Shown here: positions 14,210 to 37,672 of the stretch, one piece after another | Layout of the letters: every line of letters begins with the position of its first letter | Position numbering within the stretch: position 1 is the stretch's first letter | Origin: a virus | Strand: one strand, 5' to 3' | IMG/VR virus record: IMGVR_UViG_3300013109_000037 | Location: 1 to 55,418 of that record | DNA: 55,418 nt | The notes under the pieces: model-generated | The model's database searches: none | Told to the model about the DNA's origin: nothing | The model's input: the letters and a program-made list of their open reading frames with translations, nothing else | Position numbers and translations under genes: made by a program

Positions 14210-15385
14210 ATGGATTTATCATATTCATTAAACACATTTTACTTTTTAATGTCTGGCGTATTAGTCATGTGGATGGCAGCCGGTTTTACCATGCTAGAAG
14301 CGGGTTCAGTTAGAAGTAAAAATGTTATAGAAATACTCTTAAAGAATGTTGCACTTTATAGTGTCGCATCTGTAGGGTTTTTAGTAGGGGGTTATTCCCT
14401 TATGTATGGGTGGGGAGATATAGAAACACATTCGATGTATTCTGATTTCTTTTTTCAAGTAGTATTTGTCGCAACTGCAATGTCAGTTGTATCAGGTGCA
14501 GTCGCAGAAAGAAAGAAACTGTGGACATTCTTATTGTTTGCCGCTATCTTCACCACAATTATATACCCAATTCAAGGTTCTTGGACATGGGGTGGTGGTT
14601 GGTTGAGTCAGAGAGGATTCTTTGACTTTGCAGGTTCAGGCATAGTTCATATGGCTGGGGCTTCAGCCGCACTTGCAGGAGTTTTAATACTTGGACCAAG
14701 AAAGGGTAAATACTTAAAAGACGGAACACCTAAACCAATACACGGTTCCAATGCGGCTCAAGTCGCATTAGGCACACTCATTTTGTGGATGGGATGGTTT
14801 GGATTCAATGGTGGTTCACAACTTGCAATAGATGGTGTAGAGAACGCAAATGCAGTCGCAAAGATATTTGTAAACACTAATACTGCCGCTGCTGGTGGTC
14901 TTTTATCTGCAATGATATTATCTAAACTGTGGTTAGGTAAGACTGCCTTAAACGCCACAACAAATGGTGCATTAGCAGGTCTAGTAGTTATAACTGCTGA
15001 CCCATTAACACCTTCACCTTTAATCGCATTACTATATGGTTCATTGGGTGGAGTAATGATGCCTGTTGTTATGAGTTGGATAGAAAGAAAAGGTTGTGAT
15101 GATCCAGTTGGTGCAATATCAGTTCATGGTGTCGCAGGTGTTTTAGGACTTATGTTAGTCCCAATACTAAACGCAGATGCAAGTTTCTTACATCAAGCAT
15201 ATGGAACAGTCACAATATTTGGATTTGTTTTCTCTACATCATATCTATTATGGTGGATATTAAACAAGACTGTAGGTATCAGAGTTGGTGAACAAGAAGA
15301 AGTTGGTGGTTCAGATATGTGGGAAACAGGTTCAAAAGCTTACCCATATTTTATGAAAGGTCATGGAGAAGAATCTGATAAATAA
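14210..15385 (+). CDS. amt: Ammonium transporter (Amt/AmtB family)
   Basis: A complete 391-residue Amt protein, nearly the length of mature E. coli AmtB, with about 11 membrane segments. Key residues are in place: Trp127 (SWTWGGG), Asp139 in DFAGSG, pore His147 (GIVHMAG) and His306 (AISVHGVAG), and the WFGFNGGS motif with its Ser. The conserved C-terminal GIRVGEQEEVGGSDMWETGS and AYP regulatory tail is present. No signal peptide is obvious and no GlnK gene lies nearby. It sits between gp46 and a deformylase with a good ribosome-binding site (aaggag), so it is under phage control. The likely role is raising ammonium uptake in a nitrogen-limited host during infection. Confidence 0.95.
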   Translation: MDLSYSLNTFYFLMSGVLVMWMAAGFTMLEAGSVRSKNVIEILLKNVALYSVASVGFLVGGYSLMYGWGDIETHSMYSDFFFQVVFVATAMSVVSGAVAERKKLWTFLLFAAIFTTIIYPIQGSWTWGGGWLSQRGFFDFAGSGIVHMAGASAALAGVLILGPRKGKYLKDGTPKPIHGSNAAQVALGTLILWMGWFGFNGGSQLAIDGVENANAVAKIFVNTNTAAAGGLLSAMILSKLWLGKTALNATTNGALAGLVVITADPLTPSPLIALLYGSLGGVMMPVVMSWIERKGCDDPVGAISVHGVAGVLGLMLVPILNADASFLHQAYGTVTIFGFVFSTSYLLWWILNKTVGIRVGEQEEVGGSDMWETGSKAYPYFMKGHGEESDK

Positions 15386-27740: not shown

Positions 27741-28065
27741 TAATGAATTGCCAGAAGATGTTCTGGACTTAGAATTAGATTATCTAACTCCTGTTGCAGA
27801 TATGCTCAATGAGTTTGGATTCCCAATTATAATTGCACTTGCAATGGGTTATTTTATCTACTTTGTCTGGAAATTTGTGACGGAAGAATTAGAACCGAAT
27901 CTGGATAAACAACAGACGGTACTTGTAAGACTTATCGACCAAATGAGAATGTTAGACCAAGACCAGATAAGATTGCAAGAAAAATTAAATACAGTTTTAG
28001 AGTATAAGCAAGCGCAGGCTCTAAAGGGGAAGAAGAATGAAGACACAAAAGATAAAGATAGCTAG
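27724..28065 (+). CDS. Small membrane protein with coiled coil, second gene of curli operon
   Basis: A 113-residue protein: an acidic N-terminus, one membrane helix (GFPIIIALAMGYFIYFVWKF), then a coiled coil (LIDQMRMLDQDQIRLQEKLN) and a Lys/Glu-rich tail. The layout matches the preceding protein. It overlaps csgF by 29 bases in another frame. Confidence 0.7.
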   Translation: MQEEISNELPEDVLDLELDYLTPVADMLNEFGFPIIIALAMGYFIYFVWKFVTEELEPNLDKQQTVLVRLIDQMRMLDQDQIRLQEKLNTVLEYKQAQALKGKKNEDTKDKDS

Positions 28066-28564
28066 TTTCGTATTTTCAATATTATTTGTATTGTTTCTAC
28101 ACGCAAACAATGTTTACGCATCACCAATAACACACGAATTTAAAAATCCATCTTTCAGTGGAAAGGGAACCGCATCTCATTATCTCACAGTAGAGAACCA
28201 AGAGTTCACTCGTAAGACGGAGATAGAAGATGCATTAGAATCAGCTCGTAAAGCTGCTGAAAGGGCAGAAGACAATACAACCCTTGCAAAATTTATTAGA
28301 AACTTAGAGAGCCGTATCTATGCTCAAATGGCCAAACAATTGGTTGAATCAATGTTCTCAAACGATACTGCAACTCGTTTTGGTTCATTTGTATTAGAAG
28401 GTAGTACAGTCACATACGAAGTAATCACTAACGCAGACGGCTCAGAATTTATTAGAATGACTATTGTATCAGAAGATGGTACAGAAACAATATTAGAGAT
28501 ACCAATAGGTTCAGGAAACTTTAGTCAGGACCCTGATCCTGTGCCAGTGCCTGGAGACAGTTAA
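28037..28564 (+). CDS. csgF: Curli assembly factor CsgF-like
   Basis: A 175-residue secreted protein. A signal peptide (KIASFVFSILFVLFLHANNVYA) is followed by SPITHEFKNPSFSGKG, which matches the mature N-terminus of E. coli CsgF (TFQFRNPNFGG), the part that inserts into the CsgG pore. A helical middle (LESRIYAQMAKQLVESMF) and a C-terminal strand region (VTYEVITNADGSEFIRM, then ETILEIPIG) also follow the CsgF plan. CsgF couples CsgG to fibre nucleation at the cell surface. The csgG gene follows with a one-base overlap (TAATG). Confidence 0.9.
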   Translation: MKTQKIKIASFVFSILFVLFLHANNVYASPITHEFKNPSFSGKGTASHYLTVENQEFTRKTEIEDALESARKAAERAEDNTTLAKFIRNLESRIYAQMAKQLVESMFSNDTATRFGSFVLEGSTVTYEVITNADGSEFIRMTIVSEDGTETILEIPIGSGNFSQDPDPVPVPGDS

Positions 28565-29451
28565 TGTTTCGAAATTTTCTTTTAAGTTCTTTATTGATTC
28601 TTATGTCAGGTTGTGCATCAATACCACAGTGGAGTATGGACCCTAAAGATTGTGATTATCAGGAGGGGTTTGGCAAAGATGTTTGGACAGGTGTTAATAA
28701 AATAATGTCCAGAAAATATATTTGTGTTGATACGCCGGAAGTAATAAGACTTCCATCATACATAGAACTGTTAAACATACCACCTGCAAAAGAAATGCCA
28801 GTGGTTGCAGTATATAATTTCATTGATAGAACAGGTCAAAGAAAATCAGAAGGTAACATTGCATCATTCTCTACAGCAGTCACACAAGGCGCTGAAGCAA
28901 TGGTTATAGATGCACTTAAAACCGCCGCTGGTGGTAAGTGGTTTAGAGTTGTCGAAAGGGGTGGTATAGACAACTTAGTAAGAGAGAGGCAGATTATTCG
29001 TTCTGCCAGACAAGATTTTGCTACTGCCAATGGGACAGAAGCACAAGGAATTCAACCTATGCTATTCGCAGGCATAATTATAGAAGGTGGGATAATTGGT
29101 TATGATTCCAATTTACTAACCGGAGGTCGAGGCGCAAGAACTCTAGGTGTTGGAATGGCCAAACAGTATCGTCAAGATGCTGTGACAATTTCTATGAGAG
29201 CTGTTAGTGTTCTCACAGGAGAAATATTATTGAATGTCCAAACAAGAAAGACTATCCTTTCTTATGGTGCTGGGGGAGATGTATTCCGATTCTTTGAAGA
29301 AGGAACACAACTTGTCGAGTTCGAGGACGGCGTGGGTAATAATGAGTCAGTGACATACGCAACACGAACAGCTATCGAGGCTGCCGTGTTGGAATTAATT
29401 TACCAAGGGCACGATAGAGGCTTTTGGATAATAGGAGAAGAAAATGAATAA
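28564..29451 (+). CDS. csgG: Curli secretion channel CsgG-like lipoprotein
   Basis: A 295-residue outer-membrane lipoprotein (signal with lipobox LMSGC). The CsgG body is clear: MPVVAVYNFIDRTGQ, FSTAVTQGAEAMVIDALK, VVERGGIDNLVRERQIIRS, IIIEGGIIGYDSN, TGEILLNVQTRKTILSYG and DRGFW. CsgG forms a nonameric pore through which curlin subunits leave the periplasm. In the pore-lining loop the Phe equivalent to E. coli F56 is kept (ASFSTAV), but the residues matching Y51 and N55 differ and the loop is one residue longer. It overlaps the first curlin gene by 8 bases. Confidence 0.95.
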   Translation: MFRNFLLSSLLILMSGCASIPQWSMDPKDCDYQEGFGKDVWTGVNKIMSRKYICVDTPEVIRLPSYIELLNIPPAKEMPVVAVYNFIDRTGQRKSEGNIASFSTAVTQGAEAMVIDALKTAAGGKWFRVVERGGIDNLVRERQIIRSARQDFATANGTEAQGIQPMLFAGIIIEGGIIGYDSNLLTGGRGARTLGVGMAKQYRQDAVTISMRAVSVLTGEILLNVQTRKTILSYGAGGDVFRFFEEGTQLVEFEDGVGNNESVTYATRTAIEAAVLELIYQGHDRGFWIIGEENE

Positions 29452-30190
29452 ATTTTTATTAAGTATAGCATTACTTTTTGGAATGTCGACATCATTCGTT
29501 TTCGCTGCTGCTACAGATGATAATGAGGTTATGATTGCACAAACTGGAGACACCTTGAAATTATATATTGACCAAATCGGTTTTGGTAACAAAATAGGTC
29601 AAAATAATTATTCAAGTGGTTCTGGTACTGCTATGACAATGACTGGTCACACTCTAGATTTAAACATCGATATGATTGGTAATCAGAACTTGTTATTCGG
29701 ACCTTTTATCACAGATAGCACTGATATAACTTTGCTACTTTCAGGAAATTCAAACTCAGTTGATTGGAACATAGGGGCCTCAGGTTCTGCTGATGATTCA
29801 GATATTAACTTTAATGTTGATGGTGATTCAAATACATTCGATTTAGACCAAGGATATTCTTTAAGTGCAGAGAGATTGAACGCAGATTTAGTCTTAGTAG
29901 GAAACAGTAATGTATTCGATGTTGATTGGGAGTCAGATGACGCTACCTGGAACTTTACAGTCACAGGTGGATCCAATAACATTAACACTCTACAAAAAGA
30001 TGGAGAACAAACATTGAACCTAACTTTAACTGGTTCAAGTGCTGATATTGATATCAATCAATTAAGTGGAACATGTGTTTCGGGTGCAGGCAATTCTTGC
30101 TCATCACCAGACGCCCATATAACCTTAACGGCGGATAGTGAAAATGCAATCATTCAAATTAATCAGAAAGACGCTGCTAACGACAGTTAG
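29444..30190 (+). CDS. Curlin-repeat fibre protein
   Basis: A 248-residue secreted protein (signal peptide ending FVFA) with at least seven curlin-type repeats of strand-turn-strand pattern, such as LKLYIDQIGFGNKIGQNN, LDLNIDMIGNQN, LLLSGNSNSVDWN and LVLVGNSNVFDVDW. These Gly/Asn turns are the amyloid-building units of CsgA and CsgB. One Cys pair lies near the C-terminus. It is probably the main secreted subunit of the CsgG channel encoded upstream. Its last 47 bases are shared with the FecR-like gene. Confidence 0.85.
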   Translation: MNKFLLSIALLFGMSTSFVFAAATDDNEVMIAQTGDTLKLYIDQIGFGNKIGQNNYSSGSGTAMTMTGHTLDLNIDMIGNQNLLFGPFITDSTDITLLLSGNSNSVDWNIGASGSADDSDINFNVDGDSNTFDLDQGYSLSAERLNADLVLVGNSNVFDVDWESDDATWNFTVTGGSNNINTLQKDGEQTLNLTLTGSSADIDINQLSGTCVSGAGNSCSSPDAHITLTADSENAIIQINQKDAANDS

Positions 30191-31295
30191 TTTAAGTCTT
30201 TTTTTATCATACGGTGGGTTCGCTTATGCTGAACCCATTGGTGATATTGTAGAAAACAAAGGTGTCACTTCCGTAAAAAGAGGTGACAGTCGGCTTGAAA
30301 CTGATGTCGGAACAGACATAGTTTTATATGATGAAGCGGAAACTGCCAATGGCAGAATGTTAATAGAGTTCCTCGATGCAGAACAACTCTCATTAACAGA
30401 AAACAGTCTTGTTTATATTGACGAGGCGTATTACGATCCAGACCCAAGTCTATCAAAGATGTCGATTAGAATGGTAAGAGGCACATCAAGATTTGCCTCG
30501 GGTGCTGGTAATAGAATTAAAAAACAAAATGTTAATGTCGCCACACCAACGGCGAACATTACGATGAGAGGGACCGATTTCACCACAACCATAGATGAGT
30601 TGGGTAGGACAATGGTCATTCTTTTGCCTGATGAAACAACAGGTGAAACATCAGGAGAGATTTTAGTATGGAATGATGGCGGTGAAACGATTTTAAATCA
30701 AGCGTATGCGGCCACAACAGTCGCATCTTTTGAGGCCGCACCAACTAAATCAGTTGTTGTTCAAGGCATAACACCTAGTATGATTGACAATATGTTTATT
30801 GTGAATCCACCACCTGCGATAAGACAGGCGATGGAAGAATCATATTCAGATGAGCAGAACTCAGACCAAGGTGTATTAGACATCGACTTCTTAGAGTTTA
30901 ATGAACTAGAAGCAAATGCATTAGATGACACTATGGAAGGAGATTTCTCCGAATTAGATATTGATTATCTAGATGTAGACTTCTTACAAGATTTATTAGA
31001 TGTTGTTGAAGCTTTAGAAAAGACTAGAGTTGTATTGGTTGATGATAGACAGGCCGCAGATATAGCAGGTTTCAAACTTAGAGGTGCATCTGCTGGGTTC
31101 AATAAAGAATCGCAGTATAATATCTTTGAACAAGATGGCGACTTAGTATTCTTTAGAGATGTGAATGGACACATAAATATAATAATAGCCGCAGGAGGTT
31201 CCGGAACTCTAGAGACCGAAGTAGAAGGTTATCAAGGTGTTATAACATTTGGTGATGGAGATGGAATAGAAATAGTTATTATTCAACAAGGTTAA
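30144..31295 (+). CDS. Secreted FecR-domain protein
   Basis: A 383-residue protein with a signal peptide (LLTTVSLSLFLSYGGFAYA) and a FecR domain at about residues 35-195: VTSVKRGDSRLETDVGTDI, then GRMLIEFLDAEQLSLTENSLVYID and VATPTANITMRGTDF, the family's hallmark. The C-terminal half is acidic and beta-rich, ending with a curlin-like DGIEIVIIQQG. FecR domains act in cell-surface signalling; in bacteria, secreted FecR proteins often neighbour CHASE2-cyclase genes (from memory), as here at 32682. The start could be the GTG at 30138; I prefer the ATG at 30144. Confidence 0.88.
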   Translation: MQSFKLIRKTLLTTVSLSLFLSYGGFAYAEPIGDIVENKGVTSVKRGDSRLETDVGTDIVLYDEAETANGRMLIEFLDAEQLSLTENSLVYIDEAYYDPDPSLSKMSIRMVRGTSRFASGAGNRIKKQNVNVATPTANITMRGTDFTTTIDELGRTMVILLPDETTGETSGEILVWNDGGETILNQAYAATTVASFEAAPTKSVVVQGITPSMIDNMFIVNPPPAIRQAMEESYSDEQNSDQGVLDIDFLEFNELEANALDDTMEGDFSELDIDYLDVDFLQDLLDVVEALEKTRVVLVDDRQAADIAGFKLRGASAGFNKESQYNIFEQDGDLVFFRDVNGHINIIIAAGGSGTLETEVEGYQGVITFGDGDGIEIVIIQQG

Positions 31296-31300
31296 TTAAT

Positions 31301-32131
31301 ATGGATTTTTTAAATAAAATAAAAACATTTGCAATAGGAACATTGTTTTCCTTATCAGTTATAGCATCTGATGATAATACTATCAACATTAATCAAGTAG
31401 CAGGTGGAGACAACTTAGAAATCGATATCATTCAAGAAGGATTCAACAACGATATATTCTTTTCTGTAGGTGATGGAGATGATGTTGTGATTGAAATGAA
31501 ACAAGTTGGTTCTAACAACGAAATAGGTTGGGCCAATGATTCTCCAAGTTGGGGTTCTGGCGCATCTTGGGGTGGTGATATTGACTATGATAACCAAACT
31601 GTTAAACTCTGGCAGAACTGTACTAAAAATTCAGATTGCAACAAGAATGATATTCAGTTTCATATTAGTTATGGAACAAATAATAAGTTATGGTGGGCTC
31701 AAGGATATGAAATCTCAAGTAGAACCGACACTAGTTGGGCAATTGATAATACAGAGGGTGGCGGTCATTATGTTACCGTAGATATACATGGAGATGATAA
31801 CGAAATAGTTGGGCAACAACGAAATTGTTCACAAGGTAATTGTGATGGACACTCAGCAAGAATATATTTATATGGAGATGATAACTCAATCTTTGGCAAA
31901 CAAAAGGGCGATGGTGCAAAAGAATTTTATTTAACAGTTCAGAATGATGACAATACTGTTGATTATCTTCAAGATGGCCATGGCGAACACAATGCAACCA
32001 TAACATTAAATGGAACATTTGGAACTACTCTCGATTTCGAACAACGAGGCAACACAACACAAAATTATACACTTACACAAAACTGCCAAACTTCTGGCGG
32101 TTGTTCTGTCACGGTTTCGCAAGGAAACTAA
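31301..32131 (+). CDS. Second curlin-repeat protein
   Basis: A 276-residue secreted protein (signal peptide ending SVIAS). The N-terminal third has clear curlin repeats (NTININQVAGGDNLEIDIIQ, then VIEMKQVGSNNEIGW) and the rest has looser repeats with GDDNEI, GDDNSI and DDNTV turns. Six Cys occur in three spaced pairs (CTKNSDC, CSQGNC, CQTSGGC), absent from classical curlins. By analogy with CsgB it could be the nucleator or a minor subunit. Confidence 0.82.
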   Translation: MDFLNKIKTFAIGTLFSLSVIASDDNTININQVAGGDNLEIDIIQEGFNNDIFFSVGDGDDVVIEMKQVGSNNEIGWANDSPSWGSGASWGGDIDYDNQTVKLWQNCTKNSDCNKNDIQFHISYGTNNKLWWAQGYEISSRTDTSWAIDNTEGGGHYVTVDIHGDDNEIVGQQRNCSQGNCDGHSARIYLYGDDNSIFGKQKGDGAKEFYLTVQNDDNTVDYLQDGHGEHNATITLNGTFGTTLDFEQRGNTTQNYTLTQNCQTSGGCSVTVSQGN

Positions 32132-32139
32132 TATCTTGA

Positions 32140-32352
32140 ATGTCTACAAAAAAAGAGAGATTTTCAACTCTAATTCGTATGCCATATCAAGAGGGCATAA
32201 GAATCATTCTGAGGGTAATAGATTATCATAATAGAATGATACTAGAAGATAAGAAGAACGCAGAGTTTCACATGAAACAAACCCATAGACTTAGAGCTTG
32301 GATGTTAGAGATGAAAGACTTTATACAAGAAAATGAACGAGAGAATAATTAA
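32140..32352 (+). CDS. Small soluble protein of unknown function
   Basis: A 70-residue basic, helical protein (MSTKKERFSTLIRMPYQEGI) without membrane segments, 8 nt after the second curlin gene and overlapping the next gene by 20 bases. The overlaps mark it as an operon member. No family recognised. Confidence 0.6.
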   Translation: MSTKKERFSTLIRMPYQEGIRIILRVIDYHNRMILEDKKNAEFHMKQTHRLRAWMLEMKDFIQENERENN

Positions 32353-32518
32353 ACTTAAAGGCGAGTGGCGTCTAAAAAAAAGGAAAAGATTTATGAGAAG
32401 ATTACTAGCATGGGCTTTGATGATTACACTTTTAGGTGGTGCATTGTATATTTACCTTAATCATATGCAACCAGAAGAGATTGTAATACCAGAACCTATA
32501 GAGGAAATCAGAGGATAA
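32333..32518 (+). CDS. Small basic membrane protein
   Basis: A 61-residue protein with a very basic N-terminus (LKKRKRFMRR), one membrane helix (LLAWALMITLLGGALYIYL) and an acidic C-terminal tail. Basic N-terminus in and acidic tail out is the predicted topology. Its stop overlaps the next start (TAATG). Confidence 0.62.
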   Translation: MNERIIKLKGEWRLKKRKRFMRRLLAWALMITLLGGALYIYLNHMQPEEIVIPEPIEEIRG

Positions 32519-32682
32519 TGCAAGACTGGTTGTTTAATAAAATGGCACCATACGCCATACGATTCAGAGAGTGGTCTAAAGGCAGAACATGGGTAAAAAT
32601 CCCATTATGGATTCTCATACTATGGTTATTAGGATTTGCTAATCCTTACTGGTGTGTATATCCTGTTTGCTGGATCCAGTAA
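32518..32682 (+). CDS. Small Trp-rich membrane protein
   Basis: A 54-residue protein with one membrane helix (IPLWILILWLLGFA), nine Trp residues and two Cys in a C-terminal YWCVYPVCW turn. Both ends overlap neighbours by one base (TAATG), which supports it as a real gene translated with the cyclase downstream. Confidence 0.6.
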   Translation: MQDWLFNKMAPYAIRFREWSKGRTWVKIPLWILILWLLGFANPYWCVYPVCWIQ

Positions 32683-34571
32683 TGTATAATTGGAAAACGG
32701 TATTACTCACTATCGTTGCATTGGTGGGTGTAAAGATATGGTCGCCTTATTTAATAGATAATGTTAGATGGTCTTACTTCGATGTTCTACATTCATCAAA
32801 AGAAAAAGTTCAAGTAGAAGACATTCTTCTAGTAAATATAGATGAAAAGTCGATAGACGCCCTAGGTCAATACCCATTCCCTAGAGAGATATATGCTGAT
32901 ACTCTATGGGAAACTCACCACACAAACACTCATGTATTCAATATTCTATTCTCAGAAGAAGATAGATTTGGTGGAGACGAAGTCTTTGCAAACGCATTAG
33001 AGAATAGATTAACCATATTATCATCTGCACCAACAGTTCAAAAAGAATCAGGCAACGCACCATTCGTAAATACATCTGTATTTGGAGATGGTGATATACA
33101 AGACCATGTATGGAACTTTCCAGGTTTGGTGAGTCCCATTCCCGGATTACAAAGTTCGGCTTGGGGTATGGGAGTCACAGTCGCTACACCTAGTGTGGCG
33201 AAAACCCCTAACTTTGATGGTACCATCAGGAGCGCTCCGCTTGTCATCCAGGCCAATGGCCAGCTCTATCCGAGTTTGGGCTTTGAAACACTCAGAGCTT
33301 TCTATGACCAACCTAATTATCAGACTAGGGTTACTAAAGAAGAGGGTATAGTTTGGGTAAAAATGGGAAGAGATTCGCCAATCGAGACCACATCAAGCGG
33401 TGACTTAATGATTTCTTATTGGAATCAGTTTGATTCCATTTCATTCTCAGACCTAAAAGAATCGGATATAGAGAATAAGATTCTAGTTTATGGTCTTACT
33501 GCTGAAGGATTAGCTAATCCAATTTCAACTCCAGTGGGTACAATGTATCCCCACGAAGTTCAAGCGAACCTAATCCAAACCGTCTCGACAGGAGTTCAAA
33601 TACAACAATCCGACTTTCTTGAATTTTTAGAAGTCGTTCTTCTTTTGATAGTCCTTCTAGGAATATTGGCATCGGTTTACAAACTTCCCACAGTCTACTC
33701 GGCGATAGTGAGTTCCAGTATCGTGTTAGTTCAGGTGGGTGGGGGTTTCTACTTATGGTCTTCATCTCTCGTTCTCTTCGATATTTTCTGGTCATCGATT
33801 TCCTCCATAGTTGTTTTCGGGCATGCCTCTTTCAACCAATACTATACGACCTACCAACTCAAAGAACAAATTAAGAAGCAGTTCCAGAAATATTTATCTC
33901 CTGATATGATTGAAGAACTCCAGAAAGACCCAAGTAAACTTAGACTTGGTGGTGATAGAAAAGAAATGTCTTTCTTATTTGCAGACATAGTTGGATTCAC
34001 TCCCATATCAGAAGCTTATATGAAGAATGATGATCCAGAGGGACTAGTATTACTTATCAATAGATTCTTAGATGGTATGACAAAGGTGGTAATTGAGAAT
34101 GGTGGAACAGTAGATAAGTATATGGGGGATTGTTTAATGGCATTTTGGAATGCTCCGTTAGATTGTCCTAATCATGCAGAGATGGCTGTGAAGACTGCAA
34201 TAGAAATAGAACTACTCACTGAGAAAATGAATCAAGAAATTAAAGATGAGGGTATGGATTTACCACCAGTAGTAATAGGTACAGGAATTAATACAGGCCC
34301 ATGTATTGTAGGAAATATGGGAAGTGAATTGAGATTTGATTACTCAGTAGTTGGAGATGCAGTTAATCTTGGCGCAAGATTAGAAGTTCAAACAAGAACT
34401 TTTGATACACCAATTCTTTTATCCGAATATACTTATATGCAATTGGACAATATTGCATGTCAACAAATAGATGAGATTAAAGTTAAGGGTAAAGACATAC
34501 CAGTTAAAATATTTGCACCTGTCTTTGATGATGGCAGAGGAAGAAAAGAGGTTCGTAAACTCAATAAATAA
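32682..34571 (+). CDS. Membrane adenylate cyclase with CHASE2 sensor domain
   Basis: A 629-residue protein starting MYNWKTVLL at the ATG overlapping the previous stop. Order: one membrane helix (residues 7-25), an extracytoplasmic CHASE2 domain (about 30-305; YFDVLHSS, then ILLVNIDEKSIDALGQYPFPR), three closely spaced membrane helices, and a class III cyclase domain (about 425-620). Catalytic features are complete: metal Asp in FLFADIVGFT and in KYMGDCLMAF, adenine-selecting Lys in TVDKYMGD with Asp in FDYSVVGDAVN, and the Asn/Arg pair in VNLGARLE. It should make cAMP in response to a periplasmic signal. A CHASE2 stretch at 33181-33300 is about 53% G+C, far above its surroundings. Confidence 0.95.
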   Translation: MYNWKTVLLTIVALVGVKIWSPYLIDNVRWSYFDVLHSSKEKVQVEDILLVNIDEKSIDALGQYPFPREIYADTLWETHHTNTHVFNILFSEEDRFGGDEVFANALENRLTILSSAPTVQKESGNAPFVNTSVFGDGDIQDHVWNFPGLVSPIPGLQSSAWGMGVTVATPSVAKTPNFDGTIRSAPLVIQANGQLYPSLGFETLRAFYDQPNYQTRVTKEEGIVWVKMGRDSPIETTSSGDLMISYWNQFDSISFSDLKESDIENKILVYGLTAEGLANPISTPVGTMYPHEVQANLIQTVSTGVQIQQSDFLEFLEVVLLLIVLLGILASVYKLPTVYSAIVSSSIVLVQVGGGFYLWSSSLVLFDIFWSSISSIVVFGHASFNQYYTTYQLKEQIKKQFQKYLSPDMIEELQKDPSKLRLGGDRKEMSFLFADIVGFTPISEAYMKNDDPEGLVLLINRFLDGMTKVVIENGGTVDKYMGDCLMAFWNAPLDCPNHAEMAVKTAIEIELLTEKMNQEIKDEGMDLPPVVIGTGINTGPCIVGNMGSELRFDYSVVGDAVNLGARLEVQTRTFDTPILLSEYTYMQLDNIACQQIDEIKVKGKDIPVKIFAPVFDDGRGRKEVRKLNK

Positions 34572-35000: not shown

Positions 35001-35365
35001 AGATTGTAATTAATCGATTGGGAGAGAAATGAAAACCAATTAGTTGAGAACAATCTGGACGATGAAGGGATCCGGTTACCGTTAATTCGAGACCTAGAGA
35101 ACTTCATCTTACTGAGTCCAGACGGATGATGTTCTTTCATAGAACAGTTTATAATTGTTCAAATGAAGGCGATTCAGAAGTAAGAGTGACTCAGTTGCTT
35201 CGTTTGCGAAGCATTGAGGAAGAAGTCCCTTCCGTGTTCGAGTTGGGAAATAAACCTCACTTTAGTATGAGATGTTGAACTTGTTTTAGATTTGCTCGAG
35301 AAGTTTGAAACCGTAAAGAGTTCGACATCCCATACGCCCTAATGCTCATTTGAGGTTAGGTATTT
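35001..35365 (+). ncRNA. Candidate structured non-coding RNA (or long leader of the sHSP gene)
   Basis: The 450 nt between 34944 and 35395 hold no convincing gene on either strand but many perfect helices. A 14-bp arm is formed by 35054-35067 with 35102-35108 and 35116-35122. Others are 35136-35146 with 35156-35167 (two 5-bp segments), a 6-bp hairpin with TTTG loop at 35197-35212, GGAAG/CTTCC at 35218-35233, an 11-bp arm 35271-35281 with 35319-35329 (one G-U), and CCTAA/TTAGG plus CTCA/TGAG at 35338-35360. A long-range 8-bp match joins 35111-35118 with 35188-35195. It does not fit tmRNA, RNase P or a group I intron by eye. The 3' end is a guess; it may read through into the sHSP gene at 35395. 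Confidence 0.7.
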
Positions 35366-35394
35366 TAACAAACAGTCGCTTAAGGAGGACTATT

Positions 35395-35817
35395 ATGACA
35401 ATCTATGACGATGTCTTCGGGAAATCATTCCCATTCGCAATAGGGTTCGACAGAACTTTTCAACTATTAAACCGTGCTGAACATTTGCACGACACTTCAA
35501 ACTACCCACCTTACAATATTGTAAAGATTGATGCTGAAAATTTCAGTATTGAACTTGCTGTTGCTGGGTTCGGTAAGAAGGATATATCCATTACAAAAGA
35601 AAAAGAAACTCTTTTGATTGAGGGTTCAAAAGAAAATCTAAGTGAAGATACTGAGTATGTTCACAGAGGTTTATCAGGCAGAACTTTCAATAGACGATTT
35701 ACACTTGCAGACGATATTGAAGTCAAGGGTGCAGATATGAAAGATGGTATATTGAGTGTATCTTTAGAAAGGATTATTCCAGAAGAAGATAAACCAGTCG
35801 AAATTAAAATTAAATAA
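35395..35817 (+). CDS. Small heat-shock protein (Hsp20/IbpA family)
   Basis: A 140-residue chaperone that holds unfolding proteins. The alpha-crystallin domain runs from NYPPYNIVKIDAENFSIELAVAGF to the typical NRRFTLADDIEVKGADMKDGILSVSLER, with a short C-terminal tail (DKPVEIKIK) where the I-x-I anchor is expected. The ATG at 35395 has an excellent ribosome-binding site (aaggagg); an in-frame start at 35350 lies in the RNA element. Hsp20 genes are common in marine T4-like phages. Expression may depend on the upstream structured leader, perhaps as an RNA thermometer. Confidence 0.94.
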   Translation: MTIYDDVFGKSFPFAIGFDRTFQLLNRAEHLHDTSNYPPYNIVKIDAENFSIELAVAGFGKKDISITKEKETLLIEGSKENLSEDTEYVHRGLSGRTFNRRFTLADDIEVKGADMKDGILSVSLERIIPEEDKPVEIKIK

Positions 35818-35831
35818 TTTCAAAAAACCCC

Positions 35832-35860
35832 TTGTAAAATACTACTAGATTTAGTAGGAT
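35832..35860 (+). promoter_or_regulatory. sigma70-like promoter of the tRNA-like gene and peroxiredoxin
   Basis: AAACCCC then TTGTAA, 17 nt, TAGGAT, with a perfect inverted repeat CTACT...AGTAG (35842-35857). The start near 35867 is 4 nt before the tRNA-like element. Confidence 0.65.
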
Positions 35861-35870
35861 GGAATACTAA

Positions 35871-35942
35871 GCGGAGTTAGTGTAAAGAACACACTCGACT
35901 ACCAGTTGAGAGATGAAGTATCGAAACTTTCACTCCGCTCCA
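35871..35942 (+). tRNA. Degenerate tRNA-Gly-like element, anticodon position ACC, with CCA
   Basis: A 72-nt cloverleaf. The acceptor stem GCGGAGT/ACTCCGC has 7 perfect pairs, then discriminator T and encoded CCA, all typical of tRNA-Gly. The D arm is GTGT-AAAGA-ACAC with a 5-nt loop lacking the GG dinucleotide. The anticodon arm CTCGA-CTACCAG-TTGAG reads ACC, an unusual A34 glycine anticodon. The T arm (GAAGTATCGAAACTTTC) has a TCGAAA core but an 8-nt loop or a mismatched closing pair. It may be a decayed tRNA, a functional odd tRNA or a tRNA-like leader for the peroxiredoxin. Confidence 0.65.
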
Positions 35943-35963
35943 GTTTCAAACAGAGGAGAAAAA

Positions 35964-36488
35964 ATGTTTAGAGAAGGAGAACAATTAACTGTAGGTGATG
36001 AATTTCCTACTTTTAATTTACAAGGAGTTAATCCTGCAAACGATATAACAGAGGTAAGTTTAGAGGAACATGTTGGTTGGAGTGTCATTTACTTTTATCC
36101 AAAAGATTTCACATTCATATGCCCAACAGAAATTGCCGCTATGGACATACTTGTCGATGAGGCGAGAGTAATTGGTATCAGTGGTGATAATGAATTCTGC
36201 AAACAGGCCTGGAGAAATGTAAATGGAATGATTAGAGAAATCAATCATGAACTTGCAGCTGACACTGGACTATATTTATCTTCTGAATTAGGAATCGTTG
36301 ATATTGACAACGGTGTTTGTTATAGAGCAACATTCATTGTTGACCCTAATGGAACAATTCAAAGTGTTTCAGTCAACGCATTAGATACAGGTAGAAACGC
36401 ACAAGAAATATTAAGAACATTACAAGCATTAAAAGCTGGTGGTCTTACAGGTTGTGCATGGAATCCTGGCGATGAATTCGTAGCATAA
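35964..36488 (+). CDS. Peroxiredoxin (AhpC/Prx family)
   Basis: A 174-residue thiol peroxidase that reduces hydrogen and organic peroxides. The peroxidatic Cys53 lies in YFYPKDFTFICPTEI, the exact Prx active-site pattern with its preceding Thr; a candidate resolving Cys164 lies in GGLTGCAWNPGD, like AhpC-type two-Cys enzymes. Two more Cys (near 80 and 115) occur. The ATG at 35964 follows gaggag; an in-frame ATG at 35913 lies inside the tRNA-like element. No reductase gene is nearby, so host thioredoxin is the likely electron donor. It probably protects the infected cell from oxidative stress. Confidence 0.94.
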   Translation: MFREGEQLTVGDEFPTFNLQGVNPANDITEVSLEEHVGWSVIYFYPKDFTFICPTEIAAMDILVDEARVIGISGDNEFCKQAWRNVNGMIREINHELAADTGLYLSSELGIVDIDNGVCYRATFIVDPNGTIQSVSVNALDTGRNAQEILRTLQALKAGGLTGCAWNPGDEFVA

Positions 36489-36547: not shown

Positions 36548-37672
36548 ATGTTGATACTATCAAAACAAGATGCACAATATGTCGGTCAAATCTTTATCGA
36601 CTACTATGCTAATTTCGATAGAATAGATGATTATCTACGCAAAGTAAAACTAGAAAAAATGTCAGATAGACCTGCATCATTATTTGGTATGGGTCCAGAG
36701 GACGACATGTTTCAAGACTTTACGATTCATCCAGAAGACATGGAGTTCGACTGTAGAGAGGTTTCTTTATACGATGATTACATTGATATAGTTGCATCTC
36801 AAATGATTCAGAAATCGATACCAGGCAAAACTCTTAAGTGGGTTGTATATGAAACTAATACTAATAAGATTGTAGGGTTCATTCGTTTTGGTTCTCCTAC
36901 TATCAACTCTAAACCTCGTAATGAATTTCTAGGCAAACCTTTAAACACATTAGACAAAGATGTAATGAGAAGATTTAATGACTCAGCAATCATGGGGTTT
37001 AATATCATACCAACACAACCATTTGGTTTCAATTATCTAGGTGGTAAACTACTTGCAGGCATTTGTAATTCACATCTTGCAAGAGAAACATTAAACAAGA
37101 AATATAATACAGAGTTCTGTATGTTTGAAACTACATCATTATATGGCACATCTAAATCATCATCGATGTATGATGGCATGAAACCATTCTTAAGATTTAT
37201 AGGACTAACTGATTCAGATTTTGTTCCGTCAATCAATGATGATAAGTATGCACATCTAAAAGAATGGTTTGAAAATAAGAATAATGGAGTGCCACTTGTT
37301 CATGATGATGCATCGAGTAGAAAACTTAAAACGCAAGGCAAGATGATTTCTATTATAAGAAATTCATTAGATAAACATCATAGCGAAATGTTAAAACCAT
37401 TCAAACAATGTTTCGTTGATGCAAAGAATCTTACAGAACAGAAGAGACAATATCTTGGAACATATGGTTTCAAGAATGTAAAAGAGTATTTGAATTTAGA
37501 AACTGATACATTAGAAAAGAATATCAACTTTGATAGATTTGAATACGATAGTATCATTACATGGTGGAAGAAACACGCAGGTAGAAGATACGAGAAATTA
37601 AAAAATGATAACAGACTTAGAACTGAACTAGAGGTTTGGTCTAAGAATAGTAATATAGATATTATTAGGTGA
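36548..37672 (+). CDS. DUF4338/DruA-like protein, first copy
   Basis: A 374-residue protein paralogous to the one at 47022: both share the core (I/L)IPTQP(F/L)GFNY.GGKL(L/M)A..C and later TTSLYG. The order of a preceding strand pair (WVVYETNTNKIVGFIRFG), this core and a C-terminal helical region resembles DUF4338, the family of DruA in the Druantia defence system; this is my pattern recognition and needs a profile search. No catalytic residues are known to me. The gene overlaps the cytidylyltransferase operon downstream, where the function may lie. Confidence 0.6.
   Translation: MLILSKQDAQYVGQIFIDYYANFDRIDDYLRKVKLEKMSDRPASLFGMGPEDDMFQDFTIHPEDMEFDCREVSLYDDYIDIVASQMIQKSIPGKTLKWVVYETNTNKIVGFIRFGSPTINSKPRNEFLGKPLNTLDKDVMRRFNDSAIMGFNIIPTQPFGFNYLGGKLLAGICNSHLARETLNKKYNTEFCMFETTSLYGTSKSSSMYDGMKPFLRFIGLTDSDFVPSINDDKYAHLKEWFENKNNGVPLVHDDASSRKLKTQGKMISIIRNSLDKHHSEMLKPFKQCFVDAKNLTEQKRQYLGTYGFKNVKEYLNLETDTLEKNINFDRFEYDSIITWWKKHAGRRYEKLKNDNRLRTELEVWSKNSNIDIIR

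Follow-up and report, generated by a model that had tools for sequence, protein, structure and literature searches.

The window considered here, a viral DNA stretch of 55,418 nucleotides, carries a membrane-anchored class III cyclase as the last gene of a curli operon. This locus raises the question of what such an enzyme would sense in an infected cell, and on what its product would act.

A sensor cyclase in a phage curli operon

The contig is that of a marine T4-like phage, with genes for portal, scaffold, major head, gp46/47-like (SbcC/D-like), UvsW-like helicase, RegA and DNA polymerase B proteins. Among cultured phages its portal protein comes closest to those of Melnitz (55.5%) and Pelagibacter phage Mosig (54.6%). 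The operon is contiguous on the + strand over 28037-34571, with no gap larger than 8 bases, in the order CsgF, CsgG, curlin repeat, FecR, curlin repeat, three small ORFs and finally the cyclase. A CsgF-like protein (28037..28564; PF10614, E 4.9e-12) is followed by a CsgG-like outer-membrane secretion channel (28564..29451; PF03783, E 8.7e-50) and by curlin-repeat protein 1 (29444..30190), whose PF07012 match (E 0.0035) is under the Pfam cut-off and whose family is backed by synteny. The FecR-domain protein (30138..31295; PF04773, E 4.8e-8) precedes curlin-repeat protein 2 (31301..32131; PF07012, E 3.8e-7). Pfam found the FecR domain as sole match in the former and no anti-sigma N-terminal domain, and its N-terminus resembles a signal peptide, so that a role as iron regulator is not supported. 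Three small overlapping ORFs (32140-32682) separate curlin 2 from the cyclase, while in HTVC008M and Melnitz curlin 2 is followed directly by the cyclase. They comprise one of 70 aa taken from the ORF list (32140..32352), one of 61 aa without Pfam match and with one hydrophobic segment as judged by eye (32333..32518), and one of 54 aa (32518..32682) that terminates in TAATG across the cyclase ATG, an overlap that fits translational coupling. We rejected a riboswitch or another structured RNA ahead of the cyclase gene, as there was no Rfam match and the stretch conserved in some loci is the small coupled ORF.

The cyclase ORF (32682..34571, +) encodes 629 aa, with its ATG at 32682 and stop at 34571; although translation could begin at a GTG at 32652, the ATG is favoured because the homologue alignment begins there (MYxWKT). 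Numbered from the GTG, Pfam places CHASE2 at aa 21-336 (E 1.5e-31; 110-112 bits against a family cut-off of 26.3), with membrane helices on both flanks, and Guanylate_cyc (PF00211) at aa 437-615 (E 1.4e-17). Hydropathy indicates a single membrane segment at the N-terminus and three clustered ones past CHASE2, and the AlphaFold model (mean pLDDT 83) has helices at 4-20, 311-334, 337-362 and 368-401, its domain placement being unsure at a pTM of 0.61. By Pfam, hydropathy and AlphaFold, the N-terminal membrane helix and CHASE2 sensor domain occupy 32682..33660; the three membrane helices leading into the linker helix (model aa 311-401) are assigned to 33612..33884 by hydropathy and AlphaFold, and the catalytic domain (aa 424-624) to 33951..34553 by Pfam, residues and fold. 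From hydropathy and the modelled helices, CHASE2 probably lies on the periplasmic side. These results bear out an earlier note on this DNA, made from the sequence alone, which had read 32682-34571 as a phage-encoded CHASE2 class III cyclase, predicted to be active and sharing an operon with genes for FecR and fibres: the ORF and its coordinates hold, and the Pfam assignments and the contiguity of the genes agree with it. A chance ORF or bacterial contamination is ruled out, since the gene sits among T4-like phage genes and is found again on dozens of contigs of viral origin as well as in the genomes of cultured phages. Elsewhere in the window, the phage encodes an ammonium transporter (14210-15385; PF00909, E 9e-89), an HSP20-like chaperone adjoining an AhpC/TSA peroxiredoxin downstream of the module (35350-36488), and a protein at 36548-37672 with a DruA-like match (PF14236) barely above cut-off.

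Searching with the cyclase as query returned 202 viral stretches, from which we retained 80, and all six module genes occur in one order at 54 of 83 loci; the remaining loci have a subset of the genes in the same order, the contig or flank mostly ending nearby (not checked singly). With CsgG as query, FecR and cyclase were present at every one of the 22 phage csgG loci having at least 7 kb downstream. The Pelagibacter phage HTVC008M and the Methylophilales phage Melnitz carry the operon, with the enzyme annotated as adenylate/guanylate cyclase. A phage curli module with cyclase was thus already known before the window's copy: CsgF and CsgG have been reported for pelagimyophages (PMC7029224), and Wittmers et al. 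2022 (PMC9599517) gave an account of the complete module, FecR and cyclase included, from marine myo- and podophages, reported a histidine kinase in podophages, attributed to the module an alphaproteobacterial affinity and transfer between phage families, and stated that bacterial T8SS operons do not include the cyclase. The word CHASE2 is absent from the main text of that paper. New here are the re-pairing of sensor and cyclase, the CHASE2-FecR neighbourhood pattern and the near-absence of cAMP machinery in the SAR11 family.

Predicted catalytic competence, ancestry and domain re-pairing

In the 629-aa (ATG-start) numbering, the window cyclase has the metal-binding Asp435 and Asp483, the adenine-selecting Lys479 and the transition-state Asn562 and Arg566. 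The second specificity position, seven before Asn562, is Ser555 and not Asp, which makes the enzyme IIIb-like (Lys/Ser) rather than Asp-type IIIa. Of the six catalytic residues named in the earlier note, five therefore stand, while its Lys/Asp pair is in fact Lys/Ser555; the Asp meant was probably Asp553, two residues upstream of Ser555. The alignment for lost catalytic residues that the same note had proposed leaves the window set D435/K479/D483/S555/N562/R566 intact, and 79 of the 84 phage-type sequences in the alignment have this set in full. Three of the five exceptions are truncated or broken; the others are locus L012, in which Tyr replaces the first metal Asp, and Melnitz (L083:8986-11037), which has Ser for the transition-state Asn and Asp at the second specificity position. 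As such, activity may not be kept in every module member, and to judge from its residues the Melnitz enzyme may differ in activity from the others. Among the bacterial CHASE2 cyclases of our tree, the position equivalent to Ser555 is occupied by Ser in 23 and by Thr in 12. The PDB fold matches concern the cyclase part only: the predicted structure of this domain superposes on P. aeruginosa CyaB with Z 24.1 and rmsd 2.8 over 187 residues and on Spirulina CyaC with Z 23.0 (Foldseek E 1e-15), at domain identities of 34-37%. The gene is under purifying selection, with dN/dS of 0.05-0.21 across eight sequence pairs when the sensor and cyclase parts are computed separately. Residues and modelled fold together are best read as those of an active adenylate cyclase, IIIb-like and akin to dimeric bacterial adenylate cyclases.

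Phage cyclases form one clade (100/100) inside a branch common to alphaproteobacterial CHASE2 cyclases (99/99); bacterial sequences entered the tree by best CHASE2 score and by pattern, which limits how closely it can place the donor. A bacterial curli operon with a CHASE2 cyclase was considered as donor and was not seen, as in a small sample of five alphaproteobacterial csgG loci none had such a cyclase adjoining. This is in agreement with the statement on bacterial T8SS operons in PMC9599517. The suggestion of the earlier note that the module may have moved as a unit fits the phages, but not these five bacterial loci. Within the phages, intragenic recombination has re-paired sensor and cyclase domains. 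Between the window and locus L005 the sensor part is 89% identical while two cyclase segments are 67% and 54% identical, whereas comparison of the window with loci L021, L044, L040 and L067 gives 51-63% identity for the sensor and 82-85% for the main cyclase segment. Across 30 sequences, the two cyclase types (type A and other, defined via a cyclase motif and not via the sensor tree) split cleanly on the cyclase tree (95/99) but can be fitted to the sensor tree only with four or more changes; forcing type A together on the latter is rejected (AU p 3e-51). Having recombined, the two halves need not be closely matched, which speaks against the sensing role considered below.

CHASE2 neighbourhoods in bacteria and the cAMP machinery of SAR11

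CHASE2 occurs in 185 of 385 alphaproteobacterial genomes. In 40 of these 185, FecR lay within 10 kb of CHASE2 at 23 of 60 loci against 1.3 expected, approximately 18 times chance, a count drawn from the best-scoring CHASE2 matches listed and describing the strongest matches only. The assertion of the earlier note that the two are often found together in bacteria was thus correct, and it is also consistent with PMC9239204 and PMC5498481; in the former, the CHASE2 cyclases of Campylobacterota cluster with FecR and TPR genes. Ten such loci were retrieved for gene content. Two have, in a row, HlyD (in one case also an ABC transporter), a CHASE2-cyclase, an outer-membrane efflux protein and a FecR-RTX protein some 2,000 aa long; in two others a single protein combines FecR with cadherin and RTX domains, in one FecR adjoins a TPR/Slam-like protein, and in three the FecR protein has no further named domains. 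At L266:2-12563 and L267:1175-12941, the CHASE2 cyclase is encoded within an operon for the type I secretion of a giant FecR-RTX protein. We found no literature stating a CHASE2-FecR-secretion rule. These gene neighbourhoods suggest that FecR and CHASE2 may form an envelope device tied to surface-protein export, which in the phage would have become attached to curli.

Few biological entities in the ocean are as abundant as SAR11 and the phages that infect it. HTVC008M, which carries the cyclase gene, grows on SAR11; for the window phage itself the single tRNA of the contig (tRNA-Ala) has an identity to SAR11 of only 73-83% and gives no clear host call. Two genomes match all four published SAR11 16S probes, and our survey covered the 99 genomes, some incomplete, of the family containing them, and the standard cNMP-binding fold only. 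Class III cyclases above cut-off were present in 2 of the 99, both encoded together with this curli module on contigs binned to SAR11-family genomes (L381 and L382). The presence of the module leads us to read these as phage contigs within the bins, more clearly so for L382, on which genes for phage structure and lysis occur as well. On the chromosomes of the 99 genomes, a search for class III cyclases gave none above cut-off. Domains of the cNMP-binding (cAMP-receptor) type were found in 5 of the 99, and no phage-encoded cNMP-binding protein in 21 phage records, several of them fragments. CHASE2 is present in 11 of the 99, two of these being the curli-module cyclases; two other SAR11-family CHASE2 genes, checked by Pfam, have a SpoIIE-type phosphatase in place of the cyclase. 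At L262:8969-14984 and L263:9034-19901, both of the SAR11 family, a fusion of CHASE2 to a SpoIIE-type phosphatase comes first, then a protein that has no Pfam match, then FecR, with an autotransporter nearby in L262 and a TPS/ShlB pair in L263. Should SAR11 be the host of these phages, as it is of HTVC008M, the cAMP they are predicted to make would meet no standard receptor.

What the phage cyclase may report

We consider it somewhat probable that this inner-membrane receptor cyclase is the sensing arm of a phage curli (type VIII) secretion module. The CHASE2 domain, which follows the first membrane helix and precedes the other three, would face the periplasm and could there respond to the condition of the adjoining FecR protein or to curlin export via CsgG/CsgF, upon which the cyclase would produce cAMP inside the infected cell. 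In SAR11 hosts, where a standard CRP-type receptor is unlikely, the output would act through another target, of host or phage. The tie of CHASE2 to FecR and fibres is suggested by gene neighbourhood, and the neighbourhoods of T1SS/RTX loci and of the SAR11 TPS or autotransporter loci support sensing of fibre export. Against it, published work reports no fibres, and Melnitz cultures were without clumping (PMC9004378).

One proposal of the earlier note was that the phage changes host global regulation, which would mean that its cyclase raises cAMP and so steers a CRP-type regulon. The active-site residues are intact, the CHASE2 cyclases of S. meliloti do work via the CRP-type regulator Clr (PMC5498481), and the host of the window phage could possess such a receptor. 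However, the scarcity of cNMP-binding domains in the SAR11 family and their absence from the phage records examined, together with the fact that HTVC008M has the gene yet grows on SAR11, make such steering unlikely, and for SAR11 hosts the sensing of fibre export is the better inference. It is rather improbable that the product is another cyclic nucleotide (cGMP, cUMP or cCMP), perhaps a decoy or part of a Pycsar-like anti-phage defence. PADLOC PycC models match the cyclase (E 8.7e-21), but such a match is expected from the common fold and the other module proteins have no PADLOC match; likewise, Ser as second specificity residue could be taken in favour, but the adenine-selecting Lys is retained, and adenylate cyclases of the bacterial CHASE2 and IIIb kinds also combine Lys with Ser or Thr.

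Two further explanations concern what the gene is kept for. The CsgGF of Melnitz has been proposed as a lysis-timing pore (PMC9004378), and a cyclase whose CHASE2 senses the envelope and times lysis would be in keeping with a module kept whole; a bare pore would not need the curlin and FecR genes that are retained, and as weak evidence no exact TATAAATA late-promoter match lies on the + strand within the module, so that we find a lysis role quite doubtful. That the gene is a decaying passenger without function, as the changed catalytic residues in Melnitz and L012 and the few broken copies might suggest, is highly improbable given the low dN/dS, the fixed gene order and the conserved active site.

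Sensing of fibre export by the cyclase thus remains our preferred reading. A sensor cyclase under strong selection, in phages of a host family nearly without known cAMP machinery, makes the target of phage cAMP a testable question, as it does whether phage-made cAMP reports curli export. It is conceivable, and we offer this tentatively, that a cell type free of class III cAMP synthesis and of standard cAMP receptors gains from the phage a whole envelope-sensing circuit, acting through some other receptor, in which the sensor-cyclase pairing is swappable by recombination. As CHASE2, FecR and surface-protein secretion genes are repeatedly found side by side, CHASE2 enzymes may serve to monitor how surface fibres and adhesins are exported, a working hypothesis for the phage module that differs from the reading of FecR as iron regulator.

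Among the nearest known systems, the pelagiphage T8SS module (PMC9599517, including HTVC008M, and the pelagimyophages of PMC7029224) shares with the window module CsgF, CsgG, curlin, FecR, curlin and cyclase in this order as well as the alphaproteobacterial affinity, but the window cyclase is only 42-43% identical to that of HTVC008M and is preceded by the small ORFs. The module of Melnitz EXVC044M (PMC9004378) has an identical gene order, whereas its cyclase is 33% identical and differs at the specificity and transition-state positions described above. Alphaproteobacterial (S. meliloti CyaD1, PMC5498481) and Campylobacterota (PMC9239204) enzymes likewise combine CHASE2 with a class III cyclase, often beside a FecR-domain gene; unlike the phage gene they are chromosomal, and S. 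meliloti has the CRP-type receptor gene clr nearby. The catalytic fold is shared with the class IIIb enzymes of known structure, P. aeruginosa CyaB and Spirulina CyaC, which in contrast have Thr at the Ser555 position and other sensor parts.
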